From: a virus
Length of the DNA stretch: 38,137 nucleotides
Strand: one strand, 5' to 3'
IMG/VR virus record: IMGVR_UViG_3300005078_000007
Location: 1 to 38,137 of that record
The notes below the pieces were generated by a model. The model was not told the origin of the DNA and searched no databases. It saw nothing but the letters and a program-made list of their open reading frames with translations. The position numbers and the translations under genes were made by a program. Shown here piece by piece: positions 3,748 to 29,100 of the stretch. How positions within the stretch are numbered: position 1 is the stretch's first letter; each line of letters opens with the position of its first letter.

Positions 3748-4359
3748 ATGAAAACAATACTTCATCTATGCGCCGATATTGGTAGCGATAGTTATCCATA
3801 TAGTTGTGATAATAACTATATGGTAGTAAAAGTAGGGAAAGATATCGGCGTTGAGAACTATCATCACGATAGGCCCATTCATGGAATTATAGCTAACCCA
3901 GAATGTACACATTTCTCATTTGCTCGATACTCAAACGGAATTGATCCAACAAAAGGGTTATGGATGGTCGGGGAATGTTTGAGAATAATTGAAGAAGCAT
4001 CCCCTGCTTGGTATGTTATAGAGAATCCAGCCACAGGAATGCTTAAAAATTATCTCGGGATACCAAAATTTATATATGACCCATGGAACTTTGGTAGTCC
4101 GTGGACGAAGAAAACAGCGTTATGGGGTTCTTTTAATACGCCAGTTAAACTGTTTCATTCATGGGATGATGTTCCTAAAAACGATACTTTATATATTAGA
4201 CCTGGACGAAGTCGTCCTAATTTTGCTTTTTTTCATAAATCGGCAATATATAATATTCCTGAATTTAAGCCGTTTATCTCATTGGTGGATTCCGATAGCG
4301 CTTTTAGGTCACTATGTAGCCAAGGATTTGCCAAAGCATTTAAGGAGGTTAACCCATGA
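3748..4359 (+). CDS. C5-cytosine-methyltransferase-like protein (degenerate)
   Basis: This is a 203-residue protein with the layout of a short Dcm-like fold. A glycine/serine loop near the N-terminus (LCADIGSDS) takes the place of the SAM-binding FAGxGG. NPECTHFS at residues 50-57 corresponds to motif IV (PPCxxFS), with the nucleophilic Cys kept but PPC changed to PEC. IENP at 91-94 corresponds to the ENV motif, and WTKKTALWG at 119-127 to the family's GxPxxRxRxxLxG-type strand. A target-recognition domain is almost absent. Known C5 enzymes transfer a methyl group to cytosine in DNA; whether this one methylates, modifies otherwise, or only binds a base is open. The ribosome binding site is AGGAGG, and the end overlaps the next start (ATGA). 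Confidence 0.55.
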   Translation: MKTILHLCADIGSDSYPYSCDNNYMVVKVGKDIGVENYHHDRPIHGIIANPECTHFSFARYSNGIDPTKGLWMVGECLRIIEEASPAWYVIENPATGMLKNYLGIPKFIYDPWNFGSPWTKKTALWGSFNTPVKLFHSWDDVPKNDTLYIRPGRSRPNFAFFHKSAIYNIPEFKPFISLVDSDSAFRSLCSQGFAKAFKEVNP

Positions 4360-5108
4360 CTGACACAATAAAAATCCGTGAGACGTGCCCGGAGTGTAAG
4401 GGGATTGGTCGTGTCAGGCTTTGCGAAAGTATATATCATGATTCATGTAAGGATTATGAACATTATAAATGTTCGTTCTGTCTTGGGGATTGGGAAGAGC
4501 TTTGTCCCACCTGTCACGGCGAAGGCATGGTACCAATTGAGGAAGAATGGAGATGGGTACCGGGTTGGCGCGGATACTACAAAGTATCTTCTTTTGGGAG
4601 ATTTATGAAATGCGACGATAGAACGGGAGCACAAAAGATAACCCAAGGTGTTATACACAAAAATCGTGGGTATGCATATGTAAAACTTAGTAAAAATGGA
4701 ACAACAGAAACAAGATTATTACATCGTATCGTTGCTATGGCTTTTATTAATAACCGTTACATGAAAGAAGAAGTCAATCATATAGACGGAGACAAAACAA
4801 ATAATTCTGCTTGCAATTTAGAGTGGGTAACAAGAGATGAAAATATGCGTCATGCACATAATACTGGTCTTATGGCGTATAATTTAACTGGTGGCGGGAA
4901 ACTTATTGAGGTGTATGATTCTAAAAGGAACGCTATATCTTTCTATGAGACTATTGGAGAATGTGCAAATGCTACCGGAATAAATAGTCAAACTCTTAGA
5001 GATTTTTTGGCTGGTAAATATAAAAAGAGAAGAGAAAAACATCATTTACGTATACGCATTATCGCCACACCCACTATTACGAGGGAAGTTTTGGAGGGTT
5101 TAGAATGA
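4356..5108 (+). CDS. Zinc ribbon-HNH homing endonuclease fusion (NUMOD4/HNH/NUMOD1)
   Basis: A 250-residue composite protein. Residues 11-56 hold CxxC pairs (C11/C14, C39/C42, C50/C53) of DnaJ-like type (CPECKGIG, CPTCHGEG), a zinc-binding ribbon. A NUMOD4-type DNA-binding segment follows (W64 to R82; WVPGWRGYYKVSSFGR). Then comes an HNH core with H123, VNHIDGDKTNN at 140-150 and NLEWVT at 154-159, and a NUMOD1-like segment at about 183-221. HNH_3 homing enzymes nick or cut DNA and spread their own gene. The last residues (ITREVLEGLE) read like the natural tail of a small zinc-ribbon protein, so the endonuclease may have inserted in frame into that gene. AAGGAGG precedes the start, which overlaps the previous stop. 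Confidence 0.85.
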   Translation: MTDTIKIRETCPECKGIGRVRLCESIYHDSCKDYEHYKCSFCLGDWEELCPTCHGEGMVPIEEEWRWVPGWRGYYKVSSFGRFMKCDDRTGAQKITQGVIHKNRGYAYVKLSKNGTTETRLLHRIVAMAFINNRYMKEEVNHIDGDKTNNSACNLEWVTRDENMRHAHNTGLMAYNLTGGGKLIEVYDSKRNAISFYETIGECANATGINSQTLRDFLAGKYKKRREKHHLRIRIIATPTITREVLEGLE

Positions 5109-8501: not shown

Positions 8502-8921
8502 TTAGGTTGCTGTGAACCGGGCGGTAATCTCGTAGGTGGATTCTAAAGATTCTATCAAGAGACTTGCTGTCTGGTTTGCAGACAATAATGTTTCACCTTT
8601 ATACCATCCGGAAAAAGTATAACCTGGGGCAGGAATCGCCTGGAAGATAACCGTGGTCCCGGAATCAACGGTGAACGTGGTAGGAGTTGCTATACAACCT
8701 GCCACGGATGCCCCATCAGGGTCCACCACGACGCTGAACGTCACTTTTGTGACTTGGGGTATAGTTACAGATAATCCTACCTTCTCACGGGTCACCATGA
8801 CGGCAGGGAGGGCAGTTGAGTCCACCTGCTCTACGGCTTTTAGCATTGATTCTGCTACTACATTGGATACGGAGTTGTCCGTCTTTACCACTCGATATTC
8901 ATTCATTGTATACGTTGGCAT
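8502..8921 (-). CDS. Protein with InlB-B-repeat-like domain, 139 aa
   Basis: AAGGAGG precedes the ATG. The N-terminal half (about 1-65) is not recognised. The C-terminal half (about 66-138) resembles the divergent InlB B-repeat: VDPDGASVAG, then VDSGTTVIFQAIPAPGYTFSGWYKG, then ESTYEITARF. Such beta-grasp modules are common on bacterial surface proteins and turn up on phage virions as Ig-like ornaments. It is the last gene of the lysis cassette, so it could be a virion decoration or adhesion protein rather than a lysis factor. Which of these it is cannot be read from the sequence. Confidence 0.6.
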   Translation of the reverse strand: MPTYTMNEYRVVKTDNSVSNVVAESMLKAVEQVDSTALPAVMVTREKVGLSVTIPQVTKVTFSVVVDPDGASVAGCIATPTTFTVDSGTTVIFQAIPAPGYTFSGWYKGETLLSANQTASLLIESLESTYEITARFTAT

Positions 8922-8931
8922 AATTCCTCCT

Positions 8932-9423
8932 TTACTTACTCAAGTACCAGCCTGCTAAAAATGATGCCAAAGCACTGATACCTATCACCACATTTCTTCG
9001 TTTAACTTTACTCTCAAGAGCATCAATTTTCAAGGTAACATCCTTCTTGTAATTGTCGAAGCTCTTCTGTAATTCGTTTAGAGAGGTCCAAAGCATCGTC
9101 AATTCCTGTTGCGCTTTGTCCAGCTTCTGCTGCAAGCTCATCGACAGTTCGGATGATGTTGTTAATTGATTCCTCACTTCTTCCAGCTGCTTCTTGACCT
9201 CTTCCAATTGAGTCTGCAAGCTCGCTATTAAGGTCACTTGCTTCTGTGATATAGGCTGAAGCGCTTCCAGCTTGGTTGTGAGCATCTGTGATAGTGCTAT
9301 CAATTGTGTCAGCTGCTGCCTGTAACCGGTCGTCTGTTCGCTCTCTTCCGGTGTCAATGAACATACCGGTTGTAAAGCCAACAGCAAACACAATAACCAG
9401 CAGGCCAATTTTCTTAACCACAT
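8932..9423 (-). CDS. Spanin-like protein, frame A (signal-like N-terminus, coiled coil, C-terminal membrane segment)
   Basis: A 163-residue protein that begins with a hydrophobic, signal-like segment (residues 6-22). A long Gln/Leu/Glu/Lys helix that should form a coiled coil spans about 30-140, and a C-terminal membrane segment (VVIGISALASFLAGWYL) ends before SK. A signal at one end and a membrane anchor at the other is the plan of a unimolecular spanin, which joins inner and outer membrane at the last step of lysis. The cysteine at 21 (QPVC) does not fit a standard lipobox, so outer-membrane lipidation is doubtful. It follows the holin-like gene by 1 nt, with AAGGAG 4 nt before the ATG. Frame B overlaps 399 of its 492 bases. 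Confidence 0.6.
   Translation of the reverse strand: MWLRKLACWLLCLLLALQPVCSLTPEESEQTTGYRQQLTQLIALSQMLTTKLEALQPISQKQVTLIASLQTQLEEVKKQLEEVRNQLTTSSELSMSLQQKLDKAQQELTMLWTSLNELQKSFDNYKKDVTLKIDALESKVKRRNVVIGISALASFLAGWYLSK
9023..9421 (-). CDS. Spanin-like protein, frame B (overlapping gene, N-terminal membrane anchor)
   Basis: A second frame of 132 codons on the same strand, starting at GTG 2 nt after the ATG of frame A (ATGTG) and 6 nt after the same AAGGAG. The product begins MVKKIGLLVIVFAVGFTTG, a typical inner-membrane anchor with a positive inside end. An Ala/Ser/Glu-rich helical body of about 100 residues follows. That is the plan of an inner-membrane spanin subunit (Rz-like). Codon choice is ordinary for this phage (GAA, GCA, ACA, AGA). 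Known Rz/Rz1 pairs overlap in two frames, but usually with the start of one inside the other, not side by side. Either frame could be non-coding; the position after a holin and the membrane segments in both frames argue that both may be real. Confidence 0.5.
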   Translation of the reverse strand: MVKKIGLLVIVFAVGFTTGMFIDTGRERTDDRLQAAADTIDSTITDAHNQAGSASAYITEASDLNSELADSIGRGQEAAGRSEESINNIIRTVDELAAEAGQSATGIDDALDLSKRITEELRQLQEGCYLEN

Positions 9424-9424
9424 A

Positions 9425-9787
9425 TTACTCCTTGAGCGACTTTTTGAACGTCTTAGCGGCCGCCATCGCTTCCTTGATGTCTTTTATGGACGAAAAATAT
9501 GAGAATACTGCTGCGAATACAAAGCAAAGTGCTGCTGGAAGGAACACAAACACTGCATACCAGGTACCTTCTGAAGTATAGATCGTTTTGAACGTATCAA
9601 GCCCTATGAAAAGCGCTTTAACCCCGAAGCCAAGGCAAACCGTAGCAAACACTCTCCTGGAAGAAAACTCCCCATCTTTTCCGGTCCTCCATATTGAAAG
9701 AAAATCGGAAACAAGGTCCACAAGAGCCTTTGCAGCCCTAATGACAATATCACCAAAAAGTCTCAAAACAAGTAAAATCCTTTTCAT
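9425..9787 (-). CDS. Holin-like membrane protein
   Basis: The start at 9787 (MKRILLVLRLF) has GGAGG 5 nt upstream; an ATG at 9799 overlapping the previous stop (TAATG) is the alternative. The 120-residue product has an amphipathic N-terminal helix and two membrane segments, VFATVCLGFGVKALFIGL and YAVFVFLPAALCFVFAAVFSYF. A basic C-terminus follows (KTFKKSLKE). Size, two membrane spans, basic tail and position between a peptidase gene and spanin-like genes fit a holin, which forms the hole that lets endolysin reach the cell wall. No sequence family is recognised, so the call rests on context. Confidence 0.6.
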   Translation of the reverse strand: MKRILLVLRLFGDIVIRAAKALVDLVSDFLSIWRTGKDGEFSSRRVFATVCLGFGVKALFIGLDTFKTIYTSEGTWYAVFVFLPAALCFVFAAVFSYFSSIKDIKEAMAAAKTFKKSLKE

Positions 9788-9798
9788 ACAAACCTCCA

Positions 9799-10440
9799 TT
9801 ACTTCGCCGATACTTCTATGAATCTCGGTCTTACCCTATCAAGAAAAAACTGTTTATCATGAATATCCTTCACACCTTTGTTCGGTGCGTGCTTATTCCC
9901 GGACCACGAGTCATAACTCATAAATTGATTTGCATCCTTACTTACTTTCACAACAGAAATATAGTGCCCACTGTTGTGGTAATCAGTACGATAAGAGAGC
10001 ACCAAGCTGTGCCCGATAGTAAGGGCCCCTATTATGCCATAAACAGTATCCTCGGTATTACGAAAACGCTTGACCTCAGCCTTTACGTTAGCACATTCCT
10101 CAAGCACCCAGGCGATATTCTCAATATACTCATTTTCATTTTGGCCAAGTTTTACATTCGGTGCATGAGACTGCCCATAAGCAGAATACAGAAAGAAAAA
10201 CATAAGATCATCCTGGCCAAAAAGCGGCTTTCTATCCGGACCTTTTGGTATCCTATACTTCCATGGATCGTCCATAACAGCCTCAGCACTTGTGCCAGCA
10301 GCGGCCATATTGCATGTCTCGAGGAAAAAATCGGTATCCCCTGCGGCTTTAAGGTCCTTCAAAAACACGTCTATAATATTCCTGGTCTGATCGAACCGTA
10401 TACTTTCTTTTTCTGCATTCTTTGCACCATATCCTACCAT
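9799..10440 (-). CDS. C39-like cysteine peptidase, probable endolysin
   Basis: The start at 10440 has AGGAGG 9 nt upstream, better placed than the ATG at 10482. The 213-residue product has the papain-like order of C39-type peptidases: C43 in a helix-start context (ETCNMAAAGTSAEAVM), H159 in SGHYISVVKV and D177 in MSYDSW. There is no signal peptide. It is the first gene of a cassette with a holin-like gene and spanin-like genes, so the likely role is cell-wall peptide cleavage at lysis. Phage endolysins of this order are more often CHAP or NlpC/P60; here the GHYISVV strand and the Cys helix look closer to the C39-like family. It could also be a protease with another target. A promoter candidate lies directly upstream. 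Confidence 0.6.
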   Translation of the reverse strand: MVGYGAKNAEKESIRFDQTRNIIDVFLKDLKAAGDTDFFLETCNMAAAGTSAEAVMDDPWKYRIPKGPDRKPLFGQDDLMFFFLYSAYGQSHAPNVKLGQNENEYIENIAWVLEECANVKAEVKRFRNTEDTVYGIIGALTIGHSLVLSYRTDYHNSGHYISVVKVSKDANQFMSYDSWSGNKHAPNKGVKDIHDKQFFLDRVRPRFIEVSAK

Positions 10441-10464
10441 TCTTAGTATCCTCCTATAGATGAA

Positions 10465-10493
10465 ATAATACCATACTTGCATTGGGAAAACAA
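10465..10493 (-). promoter_or_regulatory. Sigma70-type promoter for the lysis cassette
   Basis: On the minus strand TTGTTT (10493-10488), a 17-nt spacer and TATTAT (10470-10465) stand 25 nt before the endolysin start. The elements interleave with those of the plus-strand promoter at 10477-10505, so RNA polymerase should not be able to use both at the same time. Confidence 0.5.
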
Positions 10494-10534: not shown

Positions 10535-11317
10535 ATGGAAGGTACTGTTGTCGCAAACTTGAGTGAGATGCCGTTAAGTAGCATTATTGCTTACGGTATA
10601 GTCATATTTATCGTGCTCATGATGGGCATGATGTTCATGAAATGGTTATTAACAAAGTCAGGAGTGAGTTCGGTTGGGACGCTTATTATAAAAAGAGAGC
10701 AAGAGGGCCAGACGGCCATGTATAGCATGAATGAAGCAAATAAAGATACAGACGATGTGATGCGCCAAAGGCTCCGGGAAGGCACGAACAGTATGTCAAA
10801 TAGAATCCTTGAGCTTTTTAACGCTTACAAACTATGCCCTATGACAAGGAGGTCCTTGGCTGCGGCCCTCCGCTACCCACTTTACGAGAGTATAAATAAC
10901 AATCATTTTACCAAAGAGCTTATGCCGGAAAAGTACAATGATTATCGCCAGCGAATCTTGGACCAGGTACATGAGGAGTTTGTCGGAGTTTACCTTGCAT
11001 CAAAAGATATATCTTGCAGTGTGGACAGTTTGCCGGATTGGCTACATTCAAAGCGCATCATAGAGCAACTTATAGACACATGGCTACTTAATACATGTAG
11101 GGCCCAAAAAGACTGTTCTCTTACTAAGATTGATACATATAAAAAGTATTCTGAAACCTTCAAAGAAAACAAAGATGATTTTAGGAACAAGATTATCGAC
11201 AGTTGTATTGCAAAGAACAACCACTACATCGAGGAAATGGCAAAAAGAATTATTCAGCTCTCAAGTGAGATAGAAAGCAGAGAAAAACTCATCGGTAGTA
11301 TTTTTAGCGATGCTTAA
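10535..11317 (+). CDS. Membrane-anchored protein, inverted (moron-like) gene
   Basis: A 260-residue protein with AAAGGAG upstream. Residues 18-38 form one membrane segment (IIAYGIVIFIVLMMGMMFMKW). A helical, soluble body follows, with six or so cysteines and a Lys/Glu-rich C-terminal helix. I do not recognise the family. It is the only plus-strand gene between 8496 and the right end, lies between the lysis and tail-fibre genes, and has its own promoter. These are the marks of a moron, a gene expressed separately from the late operon and often useful to a lysogen or an infected cell. Its stop overlaps the stop of the convergent gene. Confidence 0.6.
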   Translation: MEGTVVANLSEMPLSSIIAYGIVIFIVLMMGMMFMKWLLTKSGVSSVGTLIIKREQEGQTAMYSMNEANKDTDDVMRQRLREGTNSMSNRILELFNAYKLCPMTRRSLAAALRYPLYESINNNHFTKELMPEKYNDYRQRILDQVHEEFVGVYLASKDISCSVDSLPDWLHSKRIIEQLIDTWLLNTCRAQKDCSLTKIDTYKKYSETFKENKDDFRNKIIDSCIAKNNHYIEEMAKRIIQLSSEIESREKLIGSIFSDA

Positions 11318-11714: not shown

Positions 11715-11750
11715 CTCCTTGTTACCATAATAGCTCCTTGTTACCATAAT
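11715..11750. repeat. Tandem repeat, 17 nt identical, period 19, at stop/RBS junction
   Basis: CTCCTTGTTACCATAAT occurs at 11715-11731 and again at 11734-11750. On the minus strand each copy carries TGG TAA followed by AAGGAG. The first copy in the direction of transcription ends the fibre gene; the second supplies the ribosome binding site of the following gene. It looks like a recent short tandem duplication. Confidence 0.8.
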
Positions 11751-14700
11751 GCGTAAGCTGACTTGTACATTCTCAACTGATCATTATTACTATCTATAAA
11801 AGCAACATGCGTAGAATCCATTGCCGCTAAGGCAACAACTTCTACGGGTATACTGAGTCCTGTGCCTTCCTGACTCCATGTTGAGCCACTCCATACGTAC
11901 ATACGCAATTGATTAATAGCTTTATCTATAAAAGCAACATGTGTTGAATCCATTGCCGCTAAGGCAGGCCAGTATAGCTCGGAGATACTCAGCCCTGTGC
12001 CTTCCAAACTCCATGCTGAGCCACTCCATACGTACATTCTCAACTGATTATTACCACTATCTATAAAAGCAACATGCGTAGAATCCATTGCCGCTAAGGC
12101 AGCAATTCCTACGGATATACTAAGTCCTGTGCCTTCCTGACTCCATGTTGAGCCATTCCATACGTACATTCTCAACTGATCATTATTACTATCTATAAAA
12201 GCAACATGCGTAGAATCCATTGCCGCTAAGGCAGGATAATTTGTACCGGATATGCTCAGTCCTGTGCCTTCCAAACTCCATGCTGAGCCACTCCATACGT
12301 ACATACGCAATTGACTAATAGCTTCATCTATAAAAGCAACATGTGTTGAATCCATTGCCGCTAAGGCAGACCAGTATAGCCCGGAGATACTCAGTCCTGT
12401 GCCTTCCAAACTCCATGCTGAGCCACTCCATACGTACATTCTCAACTGATCATTATCACGATCTATAAAAGCAACATGTGTTGAATCCATTGCCGCTAAG
12501 GCAGGATAGCCTGTGGATATGCTCAGTCCTGTGCCTTCAAGTTTAAATTGTCCTATAGGCACTTTTTCGATAGTATTCTCAGTCAGCACTTTGTCCCAGG
12601 AAAACCAGGTCCCCGAACTAAGACTTCTATGCCGCATCCATATATGCGCTTTATCTCTATTGGCTGGGTCCATGCTATAACATACTTGCGTTGCATAATT
12701 AGTACTCACTTGGTGCACCATAGTTGTTATAAAGGCCCAACGATTAGTCTCAAGATCGCTTGGATAATTAGACGTATCGGCCTGGCTAAAATTATAAGTG
12801 CTATTCCAAAGTATGTCATTTAAATCGCCTGAGTATCTTTTATGCCTTCCGGTCTCAGAGAATCCTTGTAAATAGTTATTTGTAAGATACTCGATTCTTG
12901 TACCAGCTTCCTCAACATAACCAGAAGGAATCGAGCTTATGATATCTTTGTTATCATACACTACATCATCAAGACTTTCTGCATCAAACCTGCAATCTAC
13001 ATTAAAACTTGTATATACTAATTGTATAGCCACAGTAGAATTATTTTTTGCACAAAGCTTTATTTTATGCAATGCCTCATTATACCAAACTACCATATCT
13101 ATAGAGCTATAATCGTTAGCATCAAAATCCACACTGTATGATAGCTTATACCATATTTCAGATGGTAATGGATTAGTTCGTAGATTAAACCGTACTATAG
13201 TTCCACGGTGCCCTATAACACATGTGACAATACCAGATATTGTATTAAAGTTATAATCATAATTTAGGTTTAACTCAGCAATTTCCAAATATTCCCCAGA
13301 CGGAAAGTACCCTGGCTGTGGAGTATTAAAGTGCTTTACATAATTCCTTACAAACCCGTCACTATATTCTAATCCTTTTAACTGAGGGGTCACATCCTGA
13401 GATTCATTATCAGTAATAATCCTCGTCTCCTGTATTTCTTCTTCCACATACCCAGATTCGAGGGCTGTATAGTAAGTGTTATCCTGTAAGGGCGAAAAAC
13501 TCGACACAGCATAAATACCCCTACAATGGATACTCATATCTAAAGTAACAAGATGCATTTGACCATGAGCGTTTTTGAGCAGGAATATAATATCTGTATC
13601 CCCATTCACCCAAGCAACTAAGGTTATATTTGAGTAGTCGGAATCATGCCTGTAAATTTTTACTCTATATGTTAACCCAGCTGAAGCATCATAACGAACT
13701 GCAATTTCAAAGTCTATGCTACAAAACTCTACGGCATCGCTTATAATACTTTGCGCAGATGCTCTTCCTTTTACAATAAAAGATGCGCCACTACCAGGTG
13801 GTATTATTTGCACTATCTGATACCACTCACCATTCTCAAAGTAATTTTTAGCATGACTTCGTTTTACATGATAAGTAACACTACCATTCCTATACTCCTC
13901 GTATACTGACTGTAGTTTATCGGTAAGCGTTAAACCTGCAAATGTAGGAGATACACCAGCCGCCCCACCTCCAAAAGGAAACTTAGGCATATCACTCCCA
14001 GGAGTTTTTACATTTAAAACATGGCAACGGAGCCCGTCATACATCATATCGACAATATCCCCAGCTGCCCATGTGGAATCGACTACAGGGGCCCCATTTA
14101 CATAGAGCGTTTTAGGACCTGTAGCATTAACATTAACCTGGGCCCCAGCTACACACCCGTAAGTAAAGACAGAAGAAAACTTTGCCCCGGCAGTTAACCG
14201 GAAGCCTTTGAGTATGATTGCTTTCTCTATTGTGGCCTGAGCTGTGGCACAGGACCCTACAACCTGCCTGGAAGCTGTCATGGCATTAGTATTCCATACC
14301 GGTTTCCACTGGGCTGTATCCGTTACGCCTACACCTCCGATGAGTTCTGTAGGGCTTGAGCTTATTCTTCTGTACCAGGTAAACGCGAGTTCTGCCCCAA
14401 TACTCTCTACTACATAGCAGATATCGCCTAAGATATATGGTGCATTTTCGTCATACTCAAAGGCGTTGTGAATAATTGTTCTGGCAATAAGGTCCGTAAG
14501 ATTATTTACTTTATCAACAAGCTTATTGAGATTATAGGATATTCGGCCAAAAAGATGGTTCAGCGCATCCCTGGGAAGTGAAGAGACTTGTGCCCGCATA
14601 CCTTTATTTAAAATAGTACTATTAAGGTCCATAGCTTCGCTTGTGCCAACTGGAACATTCATATCAGATTCAACATCATACACCGTAACACCGGTAACAT

Positions 14701-14806
14701 CATCACCAGTGTACGCTGCGTCGGTGTATGAAAAATTGGCAACCTTGTTTGCTACGAGCCCTGTGATTATGGTCTTTATCCCGCTTATTGTGCTATAAAA
14801 GCTCAT
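11741..14806 (-). CDS. Tail fibre / receptor-binding protein with six propeller-like repeats
   Basis: A 1021-residue protein following the baseplate genes. Residues 1-300 form the probable attachment region. Two related modules, at about 303-455 and 480-632, each run from FxxGE(W/Y) to SGYVEE and look like an internal duplication. Residues about 655-745 resemble a pyocin-knob domain (YSGDLNDI... SGTWFSWDKVL), frequent in fibres and tailspikes. Residues 757-1021 are six tandem repeats of 42-45 residues, each with EGTGLSIS, ALAAMDSTHVAFID and QLRMYVW, possibly blades of a beta-propeller. Only two short loops vary. The role is host recognition. AAGGAG lies before the start. Confidence 0.8.
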   Translation of the reverse strand: MSFYSTISGIKTIITGLVANKVANFSYTDAAYTGDDVTGVTVYDVESDMNVPVGTSEAMDLNSTILNKGMRAQVSSLPRDALNHLFGRISYNLNKLVDKVNNLTDLIARTIIHNAFEYDENAPYILGDICYVVESIGAELAFTWYRRISSSPTELIGGVGVTDTAQWKPVWNTNAMTASRQVVGSCATAQATIEKAIILKGFRLTAGAKFSSVFTYGCVAGAQVNVNATGPKTLYVNGAPVVDSTWAAGDIVDMMYDGLRCHVLNVKTPGSDMPKFPFGGGAAGVSPTFAGLTLTDKLQSVYEEYRNGSVTYHVKRSHAKNYFENGEWYQIVQIIPPGSGASFIVKGRASAQSIISDAVEFCSIDFEIAVRYDASAGLTYRVKIYRHDSDYSNITLVAWVNGDTDIIFLLKNAHGQMHLVTLDMSIHCRGIYAVSSFSPLQDNTYYTALESGYVEEEIQETRIITDNESQDVTPQLKGLEYSDGFVRNYVKHFNTPQPGYFPSGEYLEIAELNLNYDYNFNTISGIVTCVIGHRGTIVRFNLRTNPLPSEIWYKLSYSVDFDANDYSSIDMVVWYNEALHKIKLCAKNNSTVAIQLVYTSFNVDCRFDAESLDDVVYDNKDIISSIPSGYVEEAGTRIEYLTNNYLQGFSETGRHKRYSGDLNDILWNSTYNFSQADTSNYPSDLETNRWAFITTMVHQVSTNYATQVCYSMDPANRDKAHIWMRHRSLSSGTWFSWDKVLTENTIEKVPIGQFKLEGTGLSISTGYPALAAMDSTHVAFIDRDNDQLRMYVWSGSAWSLEGTGLSISGLYWSALAAMDSTHVAFIDEAISQLRMYVWSGSAWSLEGTGLSISGTNYPALAAMDSTHVAFIDSNNDQLRMYVWNGSTWSQEGTGLSISVGIAALAAMDSTHVAFIDSGNNQLRMYVWSGSAWSLEGTGLSISELYWPALAAMDSTHVAFIDKAINQLRMYVWSGSTWSQEGTGLSIPVEVVALAAMDSTHVAFIDSNNDQLRMYKSAYALW
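11744..12538 (-). repeat. Six tandem repeats of 126-135 nt in the fibre gene
   Basis: Six in-frame units of 44, 45, 45, 44, 45 and 42 codons, nearly identical at the DNA level. Variation is confined to four or five codons after GLSIS, four codons after AFID, and an SAWSL/STWSQ alternation. Units 2 and 5 share LYW..IDxAI; units 3 and 6 share DSNND. This is a pattern expected from unit duplication and shuffling. Confidence 0.9.
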
Positions 14807-27956: not shown

Positions 27957-28705
27957 GCTGCCTCCTCATATAAATCTTCAAGGTGTATGAAAATCCTAAG
28001 ATGCTCGATGAGCTGCCCTGATGCATAAAAAAACTTACTTCCTGTCATACCAGATATTCTTGCCCGTTTACGCATTGTTTCATCCGACACGGACCTCTTT
28101 GCTAATGGTATTCTCCCCGTAGAGAGGCACACTATAATATCCCGTTGAATAGCCTCTGATACTTGTTTTACTTTTTGGATTATTATAGGGTCCTGCCAAG
28201 CCTTATACCGCTTAAAATCTTTACTACGGTTATACCGCATATCCGGGCTACCATCTTTCTTTTTTGGTACACTACTCTTCTGTTGTTTATATTCCGCAAT
28301 AATCGAGTTTCTTATCTCTGACCCTATGCTGTCAAATTGTTCAAATACAGCTCTTTGCCTAAAAATATACTCGAAATAAGTGTCAATAAAGTATACCCCA
28401 TTATTGTAGCTGTTACATAAAAACTCGTACAGCATTCGGTATGTAAATCCTTTAGCCCCATACGTTATAGGTACCCCAGATATGCCAGGGAAAATATTAT
28501 TACGGACAGCGTTGCTAAAACTATACGTTATTTGGTATGAGTGAGTCTTATCCATAGAAAGCACTTTACCATACTCAGCTTCTCGCCTTGTATGCTTCCC
28601 ATTCATAAGAGGCAGAAGAAAGTTAACCCCATAATCGCTTGAGTCAGCGAATGCCTTCTCCCACCGAGTTAGCTTCATATCTCGAGCTTTGTAGAACCGG
28701 TTCAT
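27953..28705 (-). CDS. Neck/tail-completion-region protein, 250 aa
   Basis: A basic protein (many Arg/Lys, e.g. KQQKSSVPKKKDG and RYNRSKDFKRYKAW) coupled to the previous gene through ATGA. It lies between connector genes and the tail terminator, so a head-tail joining role, such as a tail-completion or neck protein, is likely. An in-frame ATG at 28678 (MKLTRWEKAF) is an alternative start; both have weak ribosome binding sites. Confidence 0.5.
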   Translation of the reverse strand: MNRFYKARDMKLTRWEKAFADSSDYGVNFLLPLMNGKHTRREAEYGKVLSMDKTHSYQITYSFSNAVRNNIFPGISGVPITYGAKGFTYRMLYEFLCNSYNNGVYFIDTYFEYIFRQRAVFEQFDSIGSEIRNSIIAEYKQQKSSVPKKKDGSPDMRYNRSKDFKRYKAWQDPIIIQKVKQVSEAIQRDIIVCLSTGRIPLAKRSVSDETMRKRARISGMTGSKFFYASGQLIEHLRIFIHLEDLYEEAA

Positions 28706-29100
28706 AGCTCATAGGCCCCAAGGTTTACACCTCTATCTGATAATTTTGTACCATTCGGAGGAATAACCTCATGCAGCACGAAATGGATAAACCCACCTAT
28801 ATTTTCCGCATGTGAAGGCTTCATTAACAGATAAGGCACACCTTCATAGTCAACAAAGTCCCCTTGGACTATCTTAGGCGTATCAGCATCAATCTGCACA
28901 AAAAACACCCCACGCTCTTGCTCTGTACGCCCTTTCTCCGATCCCATCGCACCAGGTGTTATAAGCAGCAAAATACCGTTCACTTTCCTTTCTTTCTCAT
29001 GCGGCCCGTAACCTCCAATAGTCTGAGGTCTCATCGTGTACACAACGTGAGGTTGCACAAGCTCAGGAAAATATGCCAGCATCTCACCATAAATCGGCAT
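28702..29100 (-). CDS. Head closure-like connector protein, 132 aa
   Basis: A beta-rich small protein (NGILLLITPGAMG, GVFFVQIDADTPKIVQGDFVDYEGVPYLLMK). The phrase QGDFVDYEGVPYLL is like the beta-barrel head-closure proteins, where a strand-turn reads GD.i...g..y.v. Such proteins form a ring under the adaptor and hold DNA in. GGAG is found 7 nt before the ATG. Order agrees: after the DUF4054-like gene, before the neck genes. Confidence 0.5.
   Translation of the reverse strand: MPIYGEMLAYFPELVQPHVVYTMRPQTIGGYGPHEKERKVNGILLLITPGAMGSEKGRTEQERGVFFVQIDADTPKIVQGDFVDYEGVPYLLMKPSHAENIGGFIHFVLHEVIPPNGTKLSDRGVNLGAYEL

Follow-up and report, generated by a model that had tools for sequence, protein, structure and literature searches.

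Two frames opening at one ATGTG in a deep-branching phage: a probable spanin-like gene pair without a lipoprotein

Introduction

Can a single stretch of phage DNA encode two envelope proteins over almost all of its length, and if so what would such a pair do? The question is raised by a stretch of 38,137 nucleotides that makes up positions 1 to 38,137 of the virus record IMGVR_UViG_3300005078_000007, hereafter the window, in which an initial annotation reported two spanin-like membrane proteins encoded in two frames of the same DNA, with starts only 2 nt apart. Nested spanin genes are textbook overlapping genes; a near-coextensive pair that uses one ribosome-binding site and is found in three deep lineages would provide a stronger test of how two proteins constrain one DNA.

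Arrangement of the two frames

Both frames were found where the annotation had placed them, at 8932-9423 on the minus strand, and the region can be divided as follows.

8932..9423, minus strand: frame A gene, ATG start, 163 aa, with homologues in two further phages (L023 and L040, see below)
9023..9421, minus strand: frame B gene, GTG start, 132 aa, with homologues in L023 and L040
9419..9435, minus strand: shared initiation region (CAAGGAGTAATATGTGG), with one AAGGAG Shine-Dalgarno sequence and overlapping ATG and GTG
8932..9022, minus strand: stretch in frame A only, past the stop of frame B, which holds a C-terminal membrane segment

The sequence upstream of the two starts is AAGGAGTAATATGTGG, and the single AAGGAG said to be common to the ATG (9423) and the GTG (9421) is indeed seen there ahead of ATGTG. 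The GTG of frame B lies 2 nt downstream of the ATG of frame A, both within the one ATGTG, and is the first possible start after the in-frame stop for frame B. Counted from the aligned end of AAGGAGGT, the Shine-Dalgarno spacing in the window is 2 nt to the ATG and 4 nt to the GTG, the median for 20 window genes being 4 (range 3-8); over the three phages that carry the pair it is 2, 3 and 4 nt to the ATG and 4, 5 and 6 nt to the GTG. At the other end the stop of frame A falls 10 nt ahead of the ATG of the next gene, directly before its AGGAGG site, whereas the stop of frame B would leave a gap of 101 nt to that gene. The last 30 codons of frame A, which lie past the frame B stop, have normal codon usage (z +0.85).

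Frame A is predicted to encode a positively charged N-terminus and signal peptide (residues ~1-22), a helical rod (~25-142) and a C-terminal membrane segment (~144-162; KVKRRNVVIGISALASFLAGWYLSK). For frame B the prediction is an N-terminal membrane anchor (~4-22; VKKIGLLVIVFAVGFTTGMFI) followed by an amphipathic helical body rich in Ala, Glu, Ser and Asp. AlphaFold models are all-helical for A (mean pLDDT 58.9, low confidence) and helical, again with low confidence, for B, and both are too weak for a fold search.

Relatives of the pair

Searches of 50,697 phage genomes, and of viral contigs at close range, gave no direct match to frame A or frame B, and a direct search with the gene upstream of the pair (9425..9799) was likewise without a match. 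The phage, of gut type, is a deep branch whose terminase shares ~30% identity with the one in Tetrasphaera phage TJE1, and its relatives were reached only via profiles of the portal, a baseplate gene and a holin. The portal profile retrieved contigs with portals 40-47% identical and a common gene order in the structural module, and a search of these portal-related records with frame A gave a weak match in two contigs that carry the same cassette. These are the rumen phage contigs G006 and G004 (IMGVR_UViG_3300031993_000173 and IMGVR_UViG_3300028797_000177), which come from two rumen samples; their A/B cassettes are identical and they are therefore counted as one lineage, L023. The A homologue in L023 has 132 aa from an ATG and the B homologue 114 aa from the GTG of the same ATGTG. 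The baseplate profile led to a third phage, L040, on a 49.9-kb contig of 31% G+C, where the A homologue has 133 aa, the B homologue 105 aa and the start is again an ATGTG.

The plan of both proteins is retained in all three phages: A combines a signal peptide, a helical rod and a C-terminal membrane segment, and B has an N-terminal anchor and a helical body that ends before or at the start of the C-terminal segment of A. The rods of A and B measure ~118/108, 80/90 and 80/81 residues. As the three genomes differ in G+C content (41, 57 and 31%), a shared chance composition is unlikely to be the cause of this layout. The conclusions below are drawn from these three independent lineages only. The phage nearest to the window by its portal (G001, 47%) has no such cassette in its 44-kb contig, which may be incomplete, and no relatives that are close and yet non-identical were found, the sole close pair being identical.

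Evidence that both frames are coding

The probability that a frame is open was calculated exactly over all synonymous codings of the other protein with the codon usage of this phage. Given protein A, 10.4 stops would be expected in frame B of the window and none is present, P(open) being 3.5e-7; given protein B, 9.6 would be expected in frame A and again there are 0 (P(open) 3.9e-6), while the third frame has 14 stops against 10.9 expected. For the window, L023 and L040 the probability of B being open given A is 3.5e-7, 4.6e-3 and 4.1e-6 and that of A being open given B is 3.9e-6, 1.3e-3 and 4.7e-4. These figures, and those for codon usage, were obtained with a separate choice of genes and are in agreement. 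Shadow frames on the same strand elsewhere in the window had been said to stay below 90 codons, a limit which is slightly exceeded by a 95-aa ORF at 4076-4363 that overlaps 3748-4359; the longest shadow run elsewhere in the window is 112 codons, and a scan of the window gave no other shadow frame with a shared start and membrane segments in both frames. An apparent shadow run of 418 codons proved to be an artefact of a wrongly cut gene.

Both proteins are also similar between the phages. Smith-Waterman scores compared with shuffled sequences give, for every pair of phages, z of 5.6-8.8 for A and 3.7-8.2 for B. In order to allow for similarity that one frame imposes upon the other, stop-free synonymous DNA was sampled for the three A proteins and the resulting B frames compared, and the reverse was done for the B proteins. 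The similarity of B given A stands at z 4.3, 4.5 and 7.0 and that of A given B at z 13.2, 6.3 and 17.4; for every pair and in both directions the observed score was attained in 0/300 simulations, a strong result from a test that assumes saturated synonymous sites, ignores shared descent at the DNA level and is no substitute for dN/dS. The third frame shows raised similarity in two of the three phage pairs, where it is no clean control since two constrained frames largely fix the third; the pair formed by the window and L040 is clean. Hydrophobic helical periodicity in B is reached by 0/300 shuffles in all three phages, and in A by 0, 16 and 2 of 300, which is significant in two phages and marginal in the third.

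Taken from sequence, then, both frames are very probably real genes, and the dual coding proposed for this DNA is strongly supported by two diverged phages that keep both frames together with the ATGTG. That only one frame codes and the other is open by chance is very improbable. A helical shadow is easily produced here, for Ala/Glu-rich codons are read as Gln/Leu/Lys codons in the next frame, and the codon-position composition of the overlap does resemble that of a single coding frame, which in the window is B (by codon usage B is the typical frame in the window and in L040, and A in the L023 phage); chance would nevertheless have to meet a P(open) of ~4e-6 or less in the window, a layout repeated in two diverged phages, a similarity between phages that in each frame exceeds the level imposed by the other, and a frame-A-only tail that carries a membrane segment and adjoins the ribosome site of the next gene. 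Least probable of all is a single protein that begins in B and passes by a +1 frameshift into the tail of A, whether programmed or the product of a sequencing indel that splits one gene, as, for all that the composition of frame B is gene-like and the codon usage of the A tail normal, it leaves unexplained why A is open and conserved through all of B, would need the same event in three phages and finds no special structure near the frame B stop that might promote frameshifting (z -0.17).

The lysis region and the spanin slot

Three neighbours of the pair are relevant to its setting.

9425..9799, minus strand: 124-aa gene with two membrane segments, directly upstream of the pair; a holin candidate by position only
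9799..10482, minus strand: 227-aa protein whose Cys, His and Asp residues recall a cysteine peptidase; an endolysin candidate
8502..8921, minus strand: 139-aa InlB-type beta-repeat protein with homologues in the lysis regions of L023 and L040

The holin candidate has no profile match and no detectable similarity to the holins of L023 and L040, and the endolysin candidate no informative profile or PDB match. In L023 and L040 a holin with two transmembrane segments stands directly before the A/B pair, and upstream of it are an XhlA-like gene (phrog_937, E 1.8e-7 in L023) and an InlB-repeat protein. The pair is thus located in a lysis cassette in these two phages, and in the window it is flanked by holin and endolysin candidates.

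A profile of this holin retrieved 18 further contigs, mostly from rumen phages. In the rumen phages L041-L054 the holin homologue is followed by an N-anchored helical protein that is overlapped by a lipoprotein, and the examples tested match the Rz-like spanin families phrog_739 (6.6e-6, 2.2e-3) and phrog_456 (2.9e-5, 1.3e-3). Because Rz/Rz1-type genes stand at this place in phages with the same holin, the A/B pair can be said to occupy the spanin slot. The cassettes of L023 and L040 thus resemble those of L041-L054 in having a homologous holin with two transmembrane segments and then two overlapping envelope genes; they differ in that the latter pair is a short N-anchored helical protein and a proline-rich lipoprotein that overlap only in part.

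Some further features of these genomes were observed. The lipoprotein sequence of L050-L053 (YDTPYVSFPAFPVPTE) is unlike that of L041-L049 and L054 and possibly represents a separate o-spanin subfamily, and in L055-L058 the homologous holin is followed by an amidase-like gene, with no spanin pair in that slot. In the window the lysis and tail genes of the minus strand are interrupted by a single gene on the plus strand (10535-11317), whose product has an N-terminal membrane segment; the G001 homologue (28011-28721) is found between the portal and terminase genes, so the place of this gene has changed. The tail-fibre-like protein at 11741-14806 contains approximately five near-identical C-terminal repeats (MDSTHVAFIDSNNDQLRMYVWSGSAWSLEGTGLSIS...), at which recombination or changes in length are likely.

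Comparison with two-component spanins

The A/B pair shares several features with Rz/Rz1 of the lambda and P2 types: two membrane-associated proteins in overlapping frames of a lysis region, one partner anchored N-terminally in the inner membrane, with a helical body in the periplasm, and, in the relatives, the same slot after the holin. A single N-terminal anchor and a mostly helical periplasmic domain, the marks of an i-spanin, are predicted for B, the anchor by hydropathy in all three phages and the helix by a model of low confidence. Two-component spanin genes are known in embedded, overlapped and separated forms, with the start of the o-spanin gene either within the i-spanin gene or beyond it (PMC6139136). 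In Rz/Rz1 the gene of the lipoprotein o-spanin has its start within the i-spanin gene or at its end. Here it is the N-anchored gene that lies wholly inside its partner, with a start 2 nt downstream of the partner's in each of the three phages, and the partner, A, is a long helical rod with a C-terminal membrane segment in place of a lipobox-bearing outer-membrane lipoprotein.

Frame A is without a lipobox in all three phages. A relaxed scan, which recovered 7/8 known o-spanins in control loci, gave no candidate in the small ORFs of the window, of the 42.9-kb G006 record or of the L040 contig. The pair therefore lacks a feature by which both the two-component and the unimolecular spanins are defined. 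Spanin profiles gave no significant match to frame A or frame B; matches of frame A to profiles of many coiled-coil families were compositional and were discounted. The description of the proteins as spanin-like thus holds for position, since the slot after homologues of the holin contains Rz/Rz1-type genes, and finds no counterpart in the profile searches.

Proposed function of the pair

From these features we judge A and B to be a spanin-like pair of new architecture that falls outside the known classes, an i-spanin-like gene being nested in its partner, and they probably do the job of spanins, namely the breakage of the outer membrane. It seems rather likely that the locus is a dual-coded pair that occupies the place of spanins in the lysis region and does their work without a lipoprotein. 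A more specific proposal, which we offer tentatively, is a lipoprotein-free two-component system for outer-membrane disruption, in which rods encoded in two frames from one ATGTG have coupled synthesis and matched length and have been kept across deeply diverged phages.

Under such a mechanism ribosomes would start at either the ATG or the GTG, so that A and B may be made together in a roughly fixed ratio; the ATG is the better codon at a shorter spacing and the GTG a weaker codon at a more usual spacing, and both would seem usable. The N-terminal anchor of B would fix it in the inner membrane, its helix reaching into the periplasm as in an i-spanin, and A would be exported by its signal peptide, with its rod in the periplasm and its hydrophobic C-terminal tail in a membrane. 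Once the endolysin has removed the cell wall, binding of A to B could draw the membranes together. The common DNA accounts for the matching length of the two rods, and as the Ala/Glu-rich helix of B reads as Gln/Leu/Lys in A, two helical proteins would be easier to evolve here. Contact of A with the outer membrane is a putative step and the weak point of the mechanism. Indeed A would, on the usual rule, be a type I protein of the inner membrane, which would put both partners in one membrane and speaks against a spanin; so do the charge pattern around the L023 B anchor, which does not favour an N-in topology, and the upstream gene of the window, which is not detectably related to the holin behind the positional argument.

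A different function, with both proteins made and acting at the inner membrane, perhaps as a regulator pair of the holin/antiholin type or as an envelope-modifying complex, appears unlikely but has points in its favour, as neither protein has an outer-membrane anchor, both have segments of inner-membrane type, and XhlA-like and holin genes lie nearby in L023 and L040. It is harder to reconcile with a slot that holds Rz/Rz1-type genes in phages with a homologous holin and with the finding of no other spanin candidate in the phages that carry A/B; furthermore the long amphipathic helical bodies suit a periplasm-spanning role better than that of a holin.

It is more doubtful still that A alone acts, as a rod like that of a unimolecular spanin with both ends in membranes, and that B is a translated accessory or regulator. 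Unimolecular spanins (u-spanins) combine N-terminal outer-membrane attachment with a C-terminal transmembrane segment, and their example T1 gp11 is predicted to be mainly beta (PMC6139136). A is like T1 gp11 in its export signal at the N-terminus and its membrane segment at the C-terminus, and in all three phages hydrophobic segments are predicted at both of its ends. The unimolecular plan that the initial annotation had assigned to one frame does not stand: A is without the N-terminal lipobox that u-spanins need, is predicted (with low confidence) to be helical and not mainly beta, and has a second protein in the same DNA, one which is conserved beyond what A imposes.

The spanin-like reading of A and B has a bearing on what has been missed elsewhere. 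In a survey of phages of Gram-negative hosts 91/677 had no recognisable spanin, under search rules that require a lipobox (PMC6139136). A lipobox-free pair hidden by nesting would escape both gene callers and such a rule.

Host

The L040 phage encodes a DUF261 protein, a family known from Borrelia plasmids. This protein, together with the lipoprotein spanins in phages with the same holin, makes a host with an outer membrane likely. The L040 contig has been binned with a 1.7-Mb MAG labelled Clostridium; its portal is absent from the 190 other genomes of the order of that MAG (191 were searched) and, being found in that MAG only, suggests that the phage contig may be mis-binned. In the same MAG (L062-L066) a related portal is located on a separate 7.8-kb contig (G014:C24), and the 49.9-kb contig (G014:C11) begins just past the portal and protease genes; the two contigs are probably parts of one phage genome.
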